Assembly: GCF_001661265.1 (NCBI RefSeq)
Contig: NW_017566995.1
Location: 310,001 to 374,000 of the forward strand
Source of the DNA: Saitoella complicata NRRL Y-17804
Lineage: Eukaryota > Ascomycota > Saitoellomycetes > Saitoellales > Saitoellaceae
Length of the DNA stretch: 64,000 nt
Direction: 5' to 3'
A program made the translations under genes and the position numbers. The notes below the pieces were generated by a model that did no database searches, was not told the origin of the DNA, and saw only the letters and a program-made list of their open reading frames with translations. This document shows, piece by piece, positions 3,760 to 19,878 of the stretch (position 1 is the stretch's first letter; every line of letters starts with the position of its first letter).

Positions 3760-3841
3760 CGTCAGCGACAGGACTCGAACCTGCGCACGGAGACCGTAAG
3801 AGATTTCTAATCTCTCTCCTTAACCACTCGGACACGCTGAC
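3760..3841 (-). tRNA. tRNA-Ser (anticodon AGA), copy 3
   Basis: This is a third 82-nt copy with the same body as copies 1 and 2. It shares the 3' flank GACGTCAAACTTTTT with copy 2 but not the 5' flank. It is intronless, and a T-run terminator follows the gene in its own orientation. Confidence 0.96.
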
Positions 3842-11277: not shown

Positions 11278-13761
11278 TCAGGCATACCCAGGGCCCGGGA
11301 AGATGTCCCTGCCGTTCATATCAAGCCCGTACGACAACATCTCCCTCACTCTCCTCCTCATCGCCATCGCTAGGGTATCCGCATCCTCATTCAGACAGTC
11401 ATCCTTCCGCGCTCCAAGACGATTATGCCACGTCCACAACCCATGCAAACTCGCCGGCAACGGCTTCCCCTGCTCAACCTCCTGCCCACTCTCAAAACTA
11501 GGACAAGCCTCCGTCGCCTCCTGATTCGGCCCCGTGAAATACCGTCCATCGGTAAACATAATCGGATGCCGATTCACACCACAATTCTCGAGTTTCTGAC
11601 AGATTTTGAAGAGTCCGTCGTTGTAGAGCCAGTACCACATGTTGGGGTTGATGGTTGGGTAGCGTTCGTGGAAGAGGGTCTCGTTGAATGACATCGTGCA
11701 GGTTGTTTCGAGGATTTTGGAGCCGATGCCGGCTTCGGTTGGGCCGAAGATGAGGATGTTGTTGTTGGATTCGCTGTTGCCGATGTACGGGGCCGAGGGT
11801 CCACTCCTGATGAGAGGCGTGAGATCGCGAAGAGGGATGGTGTCAGCATCGAGCCAGATTCCACCGTATTTTGCGAGGAGGAGGTTCCGGACGATATCGC
11901 TGAGAGTGGACTGCTTCATCTTGAGAGATCGCTGGTATTCCTCGTCATAGTACTCCGGCATCGTCTCGACACAAAATCCCTTTCCTTCCTCAAGACGGTC
12001 GAATTTGCGGAATTCGACGTATTTTCCATACTCGCCCGTCGCGAACCTCTCCCTCGTCTCCGCACTAGGTTCACCGTTCTCGTACCAGTAAATGAGTTTA
12101 TGTCCGTCACCCAACCGCTGTGTCGCTAACCACGCTTCGATCGCGACCTCATTGAACGAACGCCAATTCCCGCTCCAGTATTGGTGGAAGATCATACCGC
12201 CTTCGGGAACGGGGTACACCGGGCATCCGGAATCGAGGAAAGCGAGTTCCCAGTCAACGAGTTTGTGTGATCTGGGCCAGATTTCTTCGCGTTGGACGAA
12301 TTCTCGGACGCAGTCGACGGGGTTTTCGGTTCTGCCCCATACCGCTGGCTGAACATTATGGGGCTTGAAGAAGCGTTCGACGTCTGTCCTGCCATATATA
12401 ACACCAGAAGGTGCCGACGAGGTGGGGTACGCGTAGAAGGAGGTAACGTAAGTCAAAATCGCGACGATAAATGATGCGACCGTGACTTTCCTCCAATTCG
12501 GGGTCGTCGCGCCGCAGTCCTTCCCGTTCATATCCCCCGCACCAACTAGCGTCGTCGTAGATGAAGAGGCCTGAGAGCGTGGGCACCTCGACGTGCGATC
12601 CCCCGAATCCCGATGTTCACCCTCATCCTCCGAATCGACACCCAAATCAAACTGTTCCACATCTTTCGCACTTACCCGCGATGGCTGAACGGTCTTGTGG
12701 TGGTTATACGTCCATGTCGAGATAGCGATGATTCCGGCGCCGAGGGTGGTCGGGACTTGAATCGTCTTTTCGCGGAGATCGGGGAAGAGGGCGACTTGGG
12801 CTGCGATGATGGTTACGATTGAGGCGGAGGAGCCGACGAGTTTGACGAGGTTGTCGGCTTTGCGGAGGATGTTTGCGACGACGAGGCCGGTTGCTGTCGT
12901 AGCCAAAATCACGGCGGCGTTGACGAAAATGGCCCAGGATGTGGAGGGGTCGGAATCGGAGGATGGTGTGGAGGTCGAGGAGAAAGAGTGAAGGCGACCG
13001 TCCCAGAAGAGGAGGATGGTGCCGGCGAAGAGGGTACCGTAGAAGTAGAGCCAGACCTGCGCAACCCAGAACGCGACTTTTTGCTTCATGATGACTTCGG
13101 TAAAGATACTCGCAAACCCACTCAAGGTCGCAATAACCAGCCCCACTATCGGACCGATGAACACCCCGATCTGGAAGGCGGGGGTGGTGGTGTTGGTGTT
13201 AGAGGTGGAGGTAGCCGTGAGAGGATCCTCCACGCCGCGAATCCAGTCGAGGAATTCGATGGGTGCGTTGAAAATGAGGAGGCCGGTACAGATTAGAGCG
13301 AGAGAAAGCCATGCGTAGAGGTTTCGTTGGCGTTTGACGAGGAGGTGGTGGAGGATACCCGTGAAGGGCAACTTGGCCAGAACTGCAACGTGGAGGAGGG
13401 AGGGGGTGGTTAGTTGGAGACCGAGGAGATAGAGGAGGTTGTTGATGAGATATAACGCGGCAGGGACGGCGTATGGTCCGTACGCTCTCCATCCGGCTTG
13501 GTCGCTGCTCGCGAAGAGGATCGCGGACTTGAGACTCCTCGCGTTGACTCCATTCCCGGTCTTGCCCAGAAATCGACAGAGGAAGATGAGCGCAAAGACG
13601 AGCTTGAGGAGCTCGGAAGAGAACGCGATGAAGGTCGATGAAATACGGACTTGGGAGTGTACCGCGGCGAACGAGAGGATTGCGCGCGTTGTTTCGAAGG
13701 TAATGTATGCTGGGAGGAGGAAGTACTTGAAGAGCGAGTTGGCGGGGATCATCGGACTCAT
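11278..13761 (-). CDS. Fused nucleotide-sugar transporter and DXD glycosyltransferase
   Basis: The 827-aa product lies in one intronless frame. Residues ~9-354 are a multi-spanning SLC35A/UDP-galactose-transporter-like domain, with LLHVAVLAKLPFTGILHHLL and GLVVANILRKADNLVKLVG resembling the conserved helices of that family. A Ser/acidic linker (~355-425) leads to one more membrane segment (~426-445). A lumenal glycosyltransferase domain follows, with the sugar-binding DXD motif in GGIWLDADTIPL (DAD at ~638-640) and a C-terminal GLWTWHNRLG region, as in GT32/alpha-1,4-galactosyltransferase relatives. I infer a Golgi protein that imports a nucleotide sugar and transfers it. The first ATG is at 13761; the codon before it is GTG. 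Donor and acceptor are unknown. Confidence 0.85.
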   Translation of the reverse strand: MSPMIPANSLFKYFLLPAYITFETTRAILSFAAVHSQVRISSTFIAFSSELLKLVFALIFLCRFLGKTGNGVNARSLKSAILFASSDQAGWRAYGPYAVPAALYLINNLLYLLGLQLTTPSLLHVAVLAKLPFTGILHHLLVKRQRNLYAWLSLALICTGLLIFNAPIEFLDWIRGVEDPLTATSTSNTNTTTPAFQIGVFIGPIVGLVIATLSGFASIFTEVIMKQKVAFWVAQVWLYFYGTLFAGTILLFWDGRLHSFSSTSTPSSDSDPSTSWAIFVNAAVILATTATGLVVANILRKADNLVKLVGSSASIVTIIAAQVALFPDLREKTIQVPTTLGAGIIAISTWTYNHHKTVQPSRVSAKDVEQFDLGVDSEDEGEHRDSGDRTSRCPRSQASSSTTTLVGAGDMNGKDCGATTPNWRKVTVASFIVAILTYVTSFYAYPTSSAPSGVIYGRTDVERFFKPHNVQPAVWGRTENPVDCVREFVQREEIWPRSHKLVDWELAFLDSGCPVYPVPEGGMIFHQYWSGNWRSFNEVAIEAWLATQRLGDGHKLIYWYENGEPSAETRERFATGEYGKYVEFRKFDRLEEGKGFCVETMPEYYDEEYQRSLKMKQSTLSDIVRNLLLAKYGGIWLDADTIPLRDLTPLIRSGPSAPYIGNSESNNNILIFGPTEAGIGSKILETTCTMSFNETLFHERYPTINPNMWYWLYNDGLFKICQKLENCGVNRHPIMFTDGRYFTGPNQEATEACPSFESGQEVEQGKPLPASLHGLWTWHNRLGARKDDCLNEDADTLAMAMRRRVREMLSYGLDMNGRDIFPGPGYA

Positions 13762-14560
13762 CACGGCTATGTACCTCTATCCTTGTCCGGGGTGGCGATG
13801 GTGATGGAGTGGTATACAAGAGAAAGAGGGAGCCGATGGAGTACAAACGGGAGAGGAGCGGGAAGTACGACGAGGCTGGGGTAGCCAGGGGGTCTCTACG
13901 GACAAGCTCGTACATGGTGCACTCTAGGTAAGCAGCAGCCAGTCAAGGTCGGCTCAGGCTGGGGACGGCCCCTGACTCTTGAGCTCGGCTTTTCGTCGCT
14001 GTCGCGGAGATGGCATGCAAACGCGGCTTATCGCAGGGTGTCGGAATGCACCAGTTGCACTGGCGTGGTGCGGATTCAGAATTTGGGTGAGGCTTGGGAT
14101 GCTTTCGACGACGCCGTGCCGGTACCGGTCGATAGTAGAGGAAGATCAAGGCAGCTGCTTCTTCTCTACGACCAACGCAATCCAACTTTTTTTCTCGCTC
14201 GGATCGCGCGAAGTCGTCAGCATATGAATTTCATCGGGTGCGCTGATTATGTCATTACTGCAGTGTGCAAGATTTATGTCACGAAAGATGAGCGAGCGCG
14301 CGAGTGGCAATACCCAGTTTCACAAATACCCCGTAAACAAGGCAGATAAAGGCCTAGGAGGTCAAGTAAGGGTTCAAAATGATCATATGGATCCTTAGCA
14401 ATCACGCAGTGGCTCCACTTTTCGGTCTCAAGGCTTCAATCTATCAGATCATACTGGGAGGTTGCTTGAGGTTATAACAACACAACTCGCTCTGGAAGCC
14501 TATTCCTAGCACATCGACAGATTCAGGCTGAATCCATCCGGGCACAGCCACACCCTCACC
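13762..14560. other. Gene-free interval
   Basis: Beyond the promoter side of the fusion gene, only short overlapping frames without recognisable domains are present. I see no RNA gene. It leads into the minisatellite and telomeric junction and may be old subtelomeric DNA. Confidence 0.35.
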
Positions 14561-14584
14561 CAAGAATGGGTGACACAGCAGTTG

Positions 14585-14860
14585 CTGGGGACGGATTCAG
14601 CCTACTCCCTCGTCATCGCCTAAGTCCCTACAGCCTACAGCTACAGCCTACTCTCTCGTCAATCAGCTTACAGCTTACAGCCTCGTCGTTGTACTCAGGT
14701 CGTTCTACTCTTGTCTCGTACTCTCGCACTCCCTCATCATTGTGCTCCCTCATCATTGTGCTCCCCTGTTGTTGTCCTCTCTCGTTGTTGTACACCCGTC
14801 ATCGTACTCTCTCGTTGTTGTACTCTCGTCATAGTACTCGCTCGTCGTCGTAATCCTATT
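14585..14860. repeat. Degenerate pyrimidine-rich minisatellite
   Basis: Short units recur imperfectly: CCCTCATCATTGTGCTC twice in tandem near 14735-14765, then variants of CTCTCGTTGTTGTAC and CTCGTCATAGTACTCG to 14850. The upstream part repeats CTACAGCCTACAG and TTACAGC. Such unstable arrays are common in subtelomeres, and this one ends about 110 bp before the telomeric repeats. Confidence 0.65.
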
Positions 14861-14970
14861 ACTAGTACATGGAGGTATTATGGCGTAATACCTCTGTTTT
14901 GGGCAAGACTAGACCATAAGCGGTAGGGATCGCCGGGTCTGGGGAGGGGCCACGGTATCAAGAAATACCA

Positions 14971-15007
14971 GGGGTTAGGGTAACCCTAACCCTAACCCTA
15001 ACCCTAA
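14971..15007. repeat. Interstitial telomeric repeat, head-to-head
   Basis: One TTAGGG unit preceded by GGGG (14971-14980) is followed immediately by four and a half TAACCC units (14981-15007). The strand switches from G-rich to C-rich at 14980/14981. This is the polarity expected where a right chromosome end meets a left chromosome end. It also confirms TTAGGG-type telomere sequence for this fungus. Confidence 0.93.
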
Positions 15008-15712
15008 GATCCTGACGCCGCCGGCTCAAGCTCCGCATCTGACACATCTGTTACCACGTCTGGCGGCCGCTTCACAATGCCGTCCAATGTTGCCACTGTC
15101 ACGGCTACCACTGCCGCGACCGTGCCTTCCGCAAGTGAAACTTCTTGCGGATCCAGCGCGTCGACAGTCGATGGTGACGGCGGTGATTTACTCGCTACCG
15201 AACGCTCGACGGCAACGTCTGTGGGATCCTCGACGACGTTTGACCGCTCAACCACAAAGACGACCGGAACGAATGGGTTAACCTCCTCTTCGGCAGGCGC
15301 TGCAGCCGCGGAGGACCGAACCGGCGCCGGAACTGACTTCAATTCGGTTAGCAGTAGTGTCACCCGTGTTAACGGCGGTCTGGCGGCATCCAGCCCCGGC
15401 CTCGCCAGTGCCGAGGGTACAGCGCAGGCCCTCACTTCTAGTGTTGCAACGACGAGCGTGAGCACGGTTGCAGCTGTGCCGGAGAATTCGGACAAGTCCG
15501 GAGATGGCGGAGCGGGCATGATTGCCACAACAGACATGAGTGGATCGAGCGCGTCTTCTGGAATTCCCACTGCATCCAGGTGTACCAGCGCAACTGCCGG
15601 GTGTTCAACTGGTCAAACCATGGCCGTTTGGACAGGCGCAGCGTTATCCGTGAAGTCTCAGCTAAGCATAGTTATCGGCGCTGTTTTGATCGGGTCCATG
15701 ATGGTCATCTGA
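15008..15712 (+). pseudogene. Ser/Thr-rich GPI-type protein, 5' end missing at telomeric junction
   Basis: A Ser/Thr/Ala-rich frame of about 211 codons from the first ATG (15077) ends in a hydrophobic tail (LSIVIGAVLIGSMMVI), the hallmark of a GPI-attachment signal preceded by a mucin-like stalk. The frame has no secretion signal. It is open upstream of the ATG with the same Ser/Thr-rich composition, to the codon just after the telomeric repeats at 15007. A cell-surface GPI protein should begin with a signal peptide and usually a structured domain; both are absent. I infer the 3' half of such a gene, cut at the junction. Expression is unknown. Confidence 0.6.
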
Positions 15713-16104
15713 GTTGATCTTCGACGGGTATAGACAGGCATAGGCTAGATGATTAGAACCGTACAGATGCCATTCATATTTATAGACATTTCTTTTTGAC
15801 TTATGTTCTCGAGACTGCAGCTAGCACCTTGCAGTCGATACGCTGCGGCCGTGGGAATTTCGACATGCGCAACGGTCATAGTTGTGACAGGCTGGCAAAG
15901 ATTGATAGCGGCCAGCACTCGGTACCCTACAGCTTTCATGCTGATTGCTGCCCATCGAAATTGTACATGCTATGCTCTGAGTCTGCTGCGGTCAGTCGGC
16001 ACCAACTTCGGCAGTGATGGAGTCATGTAAAACAGGCCGTGTATTTGTATATGGTCCAGTCCAGCCCAGATCCCTTACCAGTTGACCATCACTCATGACC
16101 CATC
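15713..16104. other. Intergenic, nothing recognised
   Basis: About 390 nt between the GPI-type frame and the 3' end of the monooxygenase gene. No domain, RNA gene or repeat was recognised. Confidence 0.3.
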
Positions 16105-17430
16105 TCACTCCGCCCCACTCCCCTTCATCATAAACTCAACCCCCCTCCTAACCTCCCCCTCTAAATCCACCCTCCAAATCCAATCATACCTCCCCACAAT
16201 CGCATCCCTCACCTTTTCCACATCACTCCCCGCCCCCTCTCCCTCAAAATCATAAATCATCCCCGCTTCACGCGAGGTAGTGACGACCTTCTGGCTTCTG
16301 TGTCGCCTAACATGGTCGTAAGCCGTAAAGACCTTTTCCAGATCATCCCCCGTCACGGACTCAGTGCACCACCCCTCCTGTGCTTTAAGAACAGAAAGCC
16401 TGTGACCAAACATTTCCGAAAGTATATACGCATCCTCAACAGCCTGTCCAGCCCCCGCACCCTGATGCGGCGTACTCGCATGCGCCGCATCCCCAATAAC
16501 ACACAACCGTCCTCTCCAATACCTCTCCACACCCGGATGATCAAAAAGTGCCCACACATCCGGCTCTCTCATCATCCCCACGATCTTCCTCACCGGTTCG
16601 CCCCACCCCTCGAAATCTTTGTGGTGAGTATAGGTACCAGAAGAGGAGGAGGGAGAGGGGAGGACCCATTTGGTGTGTGGCCAGCTGGGGGAGGAGTGGA
16701 ATGCGACCACGTTCATTGTGCGGCCTTTTTCGATTGGGAAGGTGAGGATGTGCCCGTGGGGGCCGAGGTACATTTGGGAGTTGCGGGCGAGTTCGTCGCC
16801 GAGGGACGAAGCTGCTTCGGACATGGAGATGAGGGCGCGGTAGGCGTATTTGCCTGTGAAGGTTGGTGCGTAGTTGGGATAGTCTTGGGGGCCGAGGAGG
16901 ATCTCGCGGGTTCGGGAGCGGACGCCGTCGCAGCCGATGATGGCAGTATGTCTCACTGTCGTGCCATCCGCAAAATGAAGCTCCACGCAATCGTCGTGTG
17001 GTGTGATATCCGTCAACCGTTTTCCGAAGTGTGCGACGTCGTCTGGGATCAATTTGACCAAGGCATCCAAAAAATGCGCCCGATGAACAGAACTCTGACC
17101 AACCTCCTCACTCCTCACCTCGCAAATAACATCCGGCTCACCCGTCCCCCTCCGAAAATCAAACCACGTATCGTGCTTTTCTGGAGATGCGTTCCGAGTG
17201 TCGATGTTCTCGTATCCGTCCCTGATCCGAGGATCGATGAGTGCCATTGCGCGTTGGGCGTTCACACCGAAGGAGACACCTGCGCCGATTTCCGCGAATG
17301 CTGGGGCGGCTTCGTAGATGTGGATTGGGATTTGTTTGTTGAGGAGGGCGATGGCTAATGTGAGGCCGGCTATGCCGCCGCCGACGATTGCGATGGAGAA
17401 GTCTTGGTGCGCTTGGTCAGTGGAGGTCAT
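16105..17430 (-). CDS. FAD-dependent monooxygenase (salicylate-hydroxylase-like)
   Basis: The product is about 441 aa from the ATG at 17430, in one exon. It has the class A flavoprotein monooxygenase motifs in order: N-terminal GGGIAGLTLA (Rossmann GxGxxG), GCDGVRSRTR in the middle (DG motif) and CVIGDAAHASTPHQGAG (GD motif) near residue 310. Family members hydroxylate aromatic substrates with NAD(P)H and O2, e.g. salicylate to catechol. The substrate here is unknown. A 23-nt piece of the coding region (near 17099-17121) is repeated just upstream of the start (near 17471-17493). Confidence 0.9.
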   Translation of the reverse strand: MTSTDQAHQDFSIAIVGGGIAGLTLAIALLNKQIPIHIYEAAPAFAEIGAGVSFGVNAQRAMALIDPRIRDGYENIDTRNASPEKHDTWFDFRRGTGEPDVICEVRSEEVGQSSVHRAHFLDALVKLIPDDVAHFGKRLTDITPHDDCVELHFADGTTVRHTAIIGCDGVRSRTREILLGPQDYPNYAPTFTGKYAYRALISMSEAASSLGDELARNSQMYLGPHGHILTFPIEKGRTMNVVAFHSSPSWPHTKWVLPSPSSSSGTYTHHKDFEGWGEPVRKIVGMMREPDVWALFDHPGVERYWRGRLCVIGDAAHASTPHQGAGAGQAVEDAYILSEMFGHRLSVLKAQEGWCTESVTGDDLEKVFTAYDHVRRHRSQKVVTTSREAGMIYDFEGEGAGSDVEKVRDAIVGRYDWIWRVDLEGEVRRGVEFMMKGSGAE

Positions 17431-17795
17431 TGTTGTTGAGTATGATGGTGGTGAGGTTGGGAGAGGTCTGTCCAACCTCCTCACTCCTCACCTCAAAACG
17501 AAATGAGATGACCTGATCTTCATTCATTTCGCATGTTCGAGCGGGGAACTGCCGCAGCTGTCGGGTATACGGTATACCGGCAAGCAAACCACGACTGACG
17601 TAGACAAGCTCGCAGTTCTGGTTGAAATCAACAGAGAAGATCAGTCCCATTGAATGTTCATTGAATCGTGAGGTTACTTGCGACCGAGTCTGCCATGACG
17701 TCATGCTGCCCCGGTCCTCGCCTCACCACACCGCGCACTTCCTCGACCCTCCTGGCCTCGCCGCGCCGCCTCGCCGCCATACTTAAACTCCATCC

Positions 17796-18427
17796 ATGAT
17801 CCGCTCCATCACCGCCCTCACAACCGCAACTCGCTCAGCGATCAGATCAAGAGCAACAACACCAACACTCCGCAGCCAGATCAGAACAATGGCCGTCTCA
17901 AAGAACGTCGTGGGCTCCCTCCCGCCCTCCTACGAAAGCGCCCCCGAGGAAGGCAAGATGCAACACTACAACATCGCCAAACTCGCTGAATCGTCGGGCA
18001 AGTTCCGTCGTGTGATTTGGACTGGGACGCATTCGCAGTTGGTTATCATGACCGTTCCCGTCGGTGTAAGTCAATACCCCTTCCTCTCTTCTTCGAGCAT
18101 GTTCTAATGTCTTCTTTGCACCAGGGCGACATCGGCCAAGAAGTCCACCACGTAGACCAACACCTCTCCTTCCTCTCCGGCGTCGGAAAGGCCATCATCA
18201 ACGGCGAATCCCGCCCCGTGTCACCCGGAGACCTCGTCGTTGTCCCCGCCGGCTCCGAACACAATTTCATTAATACAGGAGAGACGCCGATGGTGTTGTA
18301 CACTGTTTACGCGCCGGCTGAGCATATGGAGAAAACGGTGCATGAGACGAAGGAGGAGGGGGATGAGTTGGAGGAGGCGGGGAAGGATGAGCCCCCGGAG
18401 TGGGCGCAGCCGGAGAAGAAGGAGTAG
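17796..18427 (+). CDS. Small cupin-domain protein, probably mitochondrial
   Basis: Two exons, 17796-18065 and 18125-18427, are joined by a 59-nt GT-AG intron that keeps the frame, giving 190 aa. The first ~35 residues are rich in Arg, Ser and Thr without acidic residues, like a mitochondrial presequence. A cupin barrel follows with a metal-site motif (GQEVHHVDQHLSFL... and PAGSEHNFIN) and PVSPGDLVVVPAG. Single-domain cupins of this type bind a divalent metal. The reaction is not known. The tail is Glu/Lys-rich. Confidence 0.82.
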
Positions 18428-18489
18428 ACTGACTATGAAAGATGTACGATAAGATAAGATAATACAACGTGAATGAGATACTCATGGGC

Positions 18490-19878
18490 TTACTTTGAAG
18501 CATCCTCGAGCTCCCCACACGCCCCCTTAACCAACTCCTCCACACTCCACCCCGCCATCTCCCCAAACCCCTCCATAACATAATCCAAATCCTTATCCCC
18601 CCTCCCACTCAAATTCACAAGCACACTCTCCCCAGCCCCACACCCCCTCGCCAACTTAACAGCATGCGCAACAGCATGCGCACTCTCCAACGCCGGAATA
18701 ATCCCGTCACACCGACTCAACAAGAAGAACGCAGCGAGAGCTTGTTTATCCGTGGCTGTACTAACGGTCGTTTTGGAGATAGATTGGAGGATAGCGTGTT
18801 CGGGCCCGACAGAGGGATAATCCAACGCGGAAGCGATGGAGTGTACAGGCGCTGGCGAACCCTCAGCGGTCGTGAGCAAGATGGAGTTGAAATCGTGCAT
18901 GACGCCCTCTTTCCCATACGTCAACGAACTCGCATGCTCGCCCAACCCCGTTCTCCGACCGGCGGGCTCGACGGCATGGAGCGTAACCCTCTCCGGCGCC
19001 TCATCCAGGAATCCGGAGAAGATTCCCATGGCATTCGATTCGCCCCCCACACACGCCACCACAGGATCCGGTAACCCACTGTGGGAGCTGGAATCAGAAT
19101 GCTCGGCGAATTGCACCCTCGCTTCCTCACCAACAACCCTCTGAAAATCCCTCACCATCATCGGAAACGGATCTGGTCCAACCACGCTCCCAATCGCATA
19201 CATACTCTCCCCCGTCTCATTCCCAACCCATGCCGCAAACGCCGAATCAACAACTTCCTTCAGCGTTTTGGCGCCTTCGTTGACGACCACGACCGTGGCG
19301 CCGAGGATTCGCATACGTGTTACGTTGGGAAACTCTTTCGCAACGTCAATTGCGCCCATGTGGATTTCGCAGGCGAGGGAGAAGTAGGCGCAGGTGGTTG
19401 CGAGGGCGACGCCGTGTTGTCCCGCTCCAGTCTCCGCAATCAATTTCTTCTTTCCGGGGTTTTGCCAGGAGCGCTTCGGCCATACTATCCCCTCTATCAT
19501 CAGCCCACGCAGGTCGGAGAGAGGAGTGGGGAAGGAGGAGGGGTGAGCGTACCAATGATTAATTTTATGCGCCCCAGTATGATTCAAATCCTCCCTCTTC
19601 GAAAAAAGCCTCGAAAAAAGCCTCCCATCACCAACCCTCTCGCTCAAACTCCTACAATAACTCACCGGCGTCTGTCGACCCTAGTAATCCCTCCATATCG
19701 ACGCGAGTTCGGCGATGAAGTCGGAGGAGGAACGGGATTTATGGTATTCGGTTGTTATGGTGTCCATTTGGGCTTGGAGGGGTGGAGGGGAGGAAGGAGC
19801 CGCCGAAGGGGCCGAAGAGGCCGGTGGAGGGGTTGGGTGGGAGGAGAGGTAGGTGGATGATTCGGTTGTTGAGGGCAT
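18490..19878 (-). pseudogene. Tryptophan synthase beta-like gene, apparently decayed
   Basis: The beta-subunit fold is clear: KREDLNHTGAHKIN with the PLP lysine, AETGAGQHGVA, GSVVGPDPFP and LSGRGDKDLDY near the end. Fungal enzymes normally fuse alpha and beta; this is beta only. The N-terminal stretch (from ATG 19878) runs in frame into a TAG at 19681-19683, directly before GRQTPVSYC. An intron-like segment after HKINH is followed by ALLAK in one frame and GKKKLIAETG in another, a one-base disagreement at a C-run near 19456-19460. The PLP phosphate loop reads GGESNA instead of GGGSNA. Together these point to a pseudogene; assembly error could explain the first two. A 391-codon frame (18490-19665) still stays open. 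Confidence 0.68.

Follow-up and report, generated by a model that had tools for sequence, protein, structure and literature searches.

The window, the whole stretch of 64,000 nucleotides that was analysed (C4:310001-374000; GC content 52.8%), contains a short head-to-head array of telomeric repeats, which most likely marks the point where two chromosome ends with short telomeres fused end to end. At this site, two unmutated arrays of opposite polarities, much shorter than the telomeric arrays at native ends, adjoin a subtelomere on the left side within a contig that carries telomeres at its outer ends. A chromosome-end fusion had already been proposed by an earlier sequence-only reading of this DNA, and it is now supported by the polarity of the repeats, the double capping of contig C4 and the subtelomeric left flank.

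The letters of the array at positions 14971-15007 are GGGGTTAGGG TAACCCTAACCCTAACCCTAACCCTAA, in which GGGGTTAGGG (14971-14980) is followed directly by 4.5 units of TAACCC (14981-15007). The earlier description of one TTAGGG unit followed by four and a half TAACCC units was thus exact in letters and coordinates, and TRF, when run on the window, identified 14981-15007 as a repeat of period 6 with 4.5 copies at 100% match. The G-rich run (14972-14981) and the C-rich run (14981-15007) have one T in common; the two make up a perfect inverted repeat of 10 bp that is centred on a single A. With up to one mismatch allowed, TTAGGGTTAGGG matched at three positions in the window, all of them within the array, and three matches were reached in none of 100 window shuffles; the telomeric array therefore exceeds chance. 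On one strand the G-rich repeat precedes the C-rich repeats, and the array lacks the single polarity that is usual for arrays inserted at breaks. The sequence-only reading had taken this order for the polarity of joined ends, which fits a telomere-telomere fusion with C4 being capped at both ends.

The genome comprises 14,122,262 bp in 34 contigs, and the outermost 1 kb (for some up to 9 kb) was sampled at all 68 contig ends. Terminal TTAGGG arrays were present at 56 of the 68 ends and absent from the other 12, the last perfect telomeric run consisting of 18-23 units in 49 of the 56 capped ends. Both ends are capped in 22 contigs, and the number of capped ends suggests that there are perhaps about 28 chromosomes. 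C4, 635,874 bp in length, has its own telomeres of 20 units at the left and 21 units at the right outer end. The head-to-head site (C4:324971-325007) splits this contig into about 325.0 and 310.9 kb, and both halves would be of ordinary chromosome size for this genome, as doubly capped contigs span 175.5 kb to 1.48 Mb (median 424 kb). A block within the outer 1 kb was common to another end at 39 of the 68 contig ends; among the capped ends, 30 of 56 shared such a block and 26 did not. In 162 cases the best match per end pair retained the outward orientation, and in 28 it did not, with pairs counted from both sides and assembly overlaps included. Taken together, the outer 2 kb of the 68 ends represent 1.0% of the genome.

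Several contig ends displayed features of their own. At the right end of C9, a small tail-to-tail palindrome (GGGTAACCCTAGGGTTAGGG; 868-1000) is located exactly on the telomere boundary. The left ends of C15 and C33 have an identical overlap of 937 bp with opposite outward orientations, and the two contigs probably represent a single chromosome. In addition, 485 bp are identical at the left end of C26 and the right ends of C29 and C34, preceded in C26 by a 24-bp telomeric array, and two chromosomes may be capped by the C34 segment of 20.8 kb, which in one of them would have been captured onto a short telomere.

The strongest link of the left flank to chromosome ends is the module directly adjoining the array, here termed module A (Table 1). 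At least nine other copies with 90-98% identity occur in the genome; as the genome DNA searches scored best candidates only, all genome copy counts are lower bounds. Eight of the nine scored copies are located no more than 1.8 kb from a contig end, and all eight point outward (left ends of C3, C13, C6, C5, C21 and C23; right ends of C7 and C11). Seven of these ends are capped, and the left end of C3 is without a telomere in the assembly. In the window, module A points at TTAGGG and so has the same orientation as at the contig ends. The sequence beyond the module ends at varying points before the telomere at the left ends of C21, C23 and C6, and earlier still in the window. An interior copy is present at C12:396218-396326, 37 kb from the right end, with no adjoining telomeric repeats.

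Table 1. Features at and around the head-to-head array (positions within the window)
Feature	Position	Strand	Details
Dispersed repeat, ~245 bp	14244..14501	.	28 other genome matches, 70-86%, none within ~15 kb of a contig end
End-related block	14499..14611	+	matches left end of C8 (76%, 114 bp) and right end of C7 (83%, 63 bp) in contig-end comparison
Minisatellite	14603..14852	+	CTACAGCCTACTCCCTCG-like and CTCGTTGTTGTAC-like units; TRF, contig-end comparison
Subtelomeric module A	14851..14973	+	~120 bp adjoining the array; cut off here by the telomeric array
Left telomere remnant	14971..14981	+	G-rich strand, GGGGTTAGGGT; sequence read
Right telomere remnant	14981..15007	-	C-rich strand, 27 bp, 4.5 units, unmutated; sequence read, TRF
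Ser/Thr-rich open frame	15008..15712	+	234 aa, 36% S+T, hydrophobic C-terminus by eye; opens at the array

The two blocks further left, 14499-14611 and 14603-14852, were compared with the contig ends, which they match more weakly than does the mostly end-located, outward-pointing module A; together these matches speak for a fusion. Units related to the minisatellite directly abut the telomeres at the left ends of C22 and C24 in weak matches (66 bp, 80%; 29 bp, 93%). A relative of block 14499-14611 also occurs about 60-120 bp left of an interior array at C5:233k and appeared only in a separate comparison, and blocks like those at the left end of C24 are likewise found in the interior at C18:355k, C23:106k and C5:233k. 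The dispersed repeat still further left is background and not subtelomeric, and it gave no Rfam match at the gathering threshold. Thus, the earlier assignment of the left side to a subtelomere holds, as module A is common to contig ends in outward orientation.

Across the window, the Rfam search at gathering thresholds identified six tRNAs, all located away from the junction, by which a structural RNA at this position was dismissed. Three of the tRNA genes (334-415, 2129-2210 and 3760-3841) are 82 nt long, have an equal Rfam score of 54.3 and lie within 3.5 kb; they are probably copies. A single open frame on the minus strand (11278-13776; 831 aa scanned) combines a nucleotide-sugar transporter domain with a DXD glycosyltransferase domain.

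On the right side of the array, a genome-wide DNA search with the adjoining 1,097 bp matched only the sequence itself, on which ground a copied subtelomere was rejected, and region 15008-19000 gave no match to the contig ends. Only the left side is therefore established as a chromosome end; a real end without a shared block is not unusual, as seen at 26 of the 56 capped ends. The Ser/Thr-rich frame, for which no Pfam match was obtained, may represent what is left of the 3' portion of a truncated gene for a surface protein. A frame of at least 234 aa adjoins 26.6% of 2,000 random points (window positions 16000-63000) versus 4 of the 56 capped ends, so that the long frame is no better an argument for a chromosome end than for the interior and, if anything, leans to interior DNA. 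Hence, from the earlier view of the right side as a truncated, subtelomeric surface-protein gene, the frame opening at the array was retained, and the subtelomeric status was not established by a flank that matched only itself.

These properties of the right flank would also suit the repair of an interior double-strand break by a patch of telomeric and subtelomeric DNA, without any joining of chromosomes. In that case the flanks would have adjoined each other from the outset, and the patch could have been made by telomerase at the two broken ends or copied from a chromosome end. Mammalian breaks gain telomeric repeats, and in one horse insertion an accompanying inversion produced two head-to-head stretches (PMC7215372); the module A copy in the interior of C12 could likewise be accounted for by a patch. 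However, a single repair event would have to provide a subtelomere-like mosaic of about 500 bp together with arrays of opposite polarity, whereas plain insertion by telomerase is expected to result in a single polarity and no subtelomeric flank. In addition, no frame left of the junction resembles, by eye, the 5' half that the Ser/Thr-rich gene lacks, which is a weak argument given that the reading of the minisatellite is itself rich in Ser (14470-14853). We therefore regard a repair patch as unlikely.

A false joining of two chromosome ends during assembly appears less likely still. Unresolved spots do exist, as illustrated by the 937-bp overlap of C15 and C33 and the 485 bp common to C26, C29 and C34, but the whole array of 37 bp is probably shorter than a single read, and, given the 18-23 units at 49 of the 56 capped ends, long arrays should have been retained in a false join. 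A mixed population, in turn, should have interrupted the contig at the junction. Fold-back (sister-chromatid) fusion was rejected, since the inverted matches between the left and right sides are only short and scattered.

The head-to-head arrangement is not restricted to the window. A genome-wide search for GGGTTAGGG-N(0-30)-CCCTAACCC identified two sites, on C4 and C1, versus none for the reversed-pattern control, and the tail-to-tail order, searched genome-wide with identical arm and gap settings, gave no site. The second site (C1:492046-492088; 23+20 bp) is located on the largest contig, both ends of which are capped. On the right of this site, the first 300 bp matched C29, C14, C27 and C16, in every case no more than 1.6 kb from a contig end and in three of the four in the expected orientation; judged by these sequence matches, the C1 right flank is subtelomeric. 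A fifth match (C12:419715; 78%), about 0.9 kb from the junction, falls inside or near a transporter frame. The C1 left flank gave no match to the contig ends, and a telomere-linked gene on this side was discarded, as only a sub-threshold OrsD match was obtained (E 0.0067; 17.3 bits, cut-off 26.6). The junctions on C4 and C1 are thus each demonstrably subtelomeric on one side only.

A third site, (TTAGGG)3-T-AACCCTAAC at C27:134849-134876, was met on reading the array loci and has a shorter right arm. It has a 15-nt core, TTAGGGTAACCCTAA, identical to that of the window site, and C27 is capped at both ends. No clear subtelomeric flank was found at this site, where one 33-bp match to the left end of C8 was obtained, and the halves of about 135 kb are below the size of the smallest doubly capped contig (175.5 kb). 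The site is positioned about 50 bp or less from the contig midpoint in a region with a local GC content of 41-48%, and a weak direct repeat (36 bp, 75%, E 0.08) spans it.

Arrays of at least two units, counted in all six end registers, numbered 55 versus 44 for the reversed patterns, with one register at 15 versus 6; a general use of telomeric motifs was rejected, as the arrays are little commoner than the controls. The census comprised perfect arrays with a minimum length of 12-13 bp and misses mutated scars and head-to-head sites with a shorter longer arm, so that the lack of mutation in the arrays is partly an artefact of selection. Among the loci read, single-polarity runs of at least 19 bp occurred at C5:232998-233027 (30 bp), C18:355657-355676 (20 bp), the right end of C18 (19 bp) and the left end of C26 (24 bp). 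The array on C5 is C-rich, its left block is 97% like the right end of C7, and the frame on its right is, by eye, a truncated Ty3/gypsy-type integrase. At the right end of C18, (TTAGGG)3 stands directly before a sequence that by eye resembles the antisense 5' part of 18S rDNA, and an rDNA array may be joined to the telomere here.

TTAGGG-binding Myb-type proteins are a class with telobox binding sites. A functional palindromic telobox, as a putative site for such a protein and not a scar, would fit the identical core at the window and C27 sites, but it is highly improbable, as only three sites were seen in a search incomplete for short arms, two of them have a chromosome-end repeat as one flank, and arrays of two or more units hardly outnumber their reversed controls, apart from the one register at 15 versus 6.

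For an end-to-end fusion, finally, speaks the occurrence of head-to-head sites on three contigs, C4, C1 and C27, each doubly capped, together with the absence of tail-to-tail sites at the arm and gap settings used. Counting against it are the self-only right flank, the long frame at the array, the copy of module A inside C12, the presence of some end sequences also in the interior, and C27 with its small halves and without a clear subtelomeric flank. In such a fusion, the left partner would have ended in a subtelomere (blocks 14499-14973) with no more than about 1.5 telomeric units remaining, and the right partner would have been a chromosome of about 311 kb with some 4.5 units directly on a gene, an end that may have arisen from an earlier break healed by telomerase within the gene. 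Critically short or uncapped telomeres would then have been joined, as in non-homologous end joining, with a join that may have been blunt or made via one shared T in the window (GGG-T-AACCC) and blunt on C1 (GGGT-ACCC). The product would be C4, a single 636-kb chromosome with normal telomeres outside, in which one of the two centromeres would have been lost or silenced. We infer the former end position of the right flank, the joining pathway and the fate of the second centromere from this arrangement.

Apart from the head-to-head joins on C1, C4 and C27, at least three joins of telomeres to other DNA were recognized by eye, namely to the Ty3-type integrase fragment on C5, to ribosomal DNA at the right end of C18 and to the 20.8-kb end segment common with C29 at the left end of C26. 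With their short intact arrays, these joins might reflect a recent telomere crisis, a possibility that we put forward tentatively and consider rather doubtful. Under this reading, the common core GGGT(A)ACCC hints that processing of the ends determined the register in which they were joined.

Interstitial telomeres of the fusion type are an already known kind, with human chromosome 2 as the classic case, and 2q13 is given as the only human 'fusion' interstitial telomere in the part of PMC7215372 considered. The site described here has, like 2q13 (PMC7215372), head-to-head telomeric units inside a chromosome. It differs in its total length of 37 bp, its unmutated state and a subtelomere demonstrated on one side only. 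The genus Taphrina possibly belongs to the same subphylum as the fungus studied here. According to the relevant portion of PMC7036362, Taphrina has more than 17 gel bands, and end-to-end fusions were inferred from breakpoints at another strain's telomere-bearing ends; the large number of chromosomes is a common feature, but the Taphrina fusions rest on synteny, and that portion describes no retained head-to-head telomeric scar. The fusions that led to the giant chromosome of Kwoniella and those in Cryptococcus deuterogattii have, in the sections of PMC11185503 concerned, junctions without interstitial telomeric repeats; they resemble the present case as repeated fungal chromosome fusions, but here the telomeric repeats are kept. 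The same sections name telomere-telomere style fusions for Fusarium graminearum and for C. deneoformans crosses (PMC11185503), and ancient fusion sites have been proposed for F. graminearum in a passage of PMC4511438. Pyricularia, as covered by the text portion drawn from PMC8381367, is likewise a TTAGGG fungus and has truncated and healed ends as well as internal telomeric tracts, which were linked to telomere failure and one cluster of which was suggested to be the footprint of an ancestral fusion; these tracts are largely tied to telomere-targeting retrotransposons, and the term 'head-to-head' does not appear in that paper.

Chromosome number is frequently altered by fusion, and the junctions are apparently kept here at base level beside most of the native ends. 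Therefore, the length of the fused telomeres, the chemistry of their joining and the fate of the second centromere may be directly studied in a small genome.
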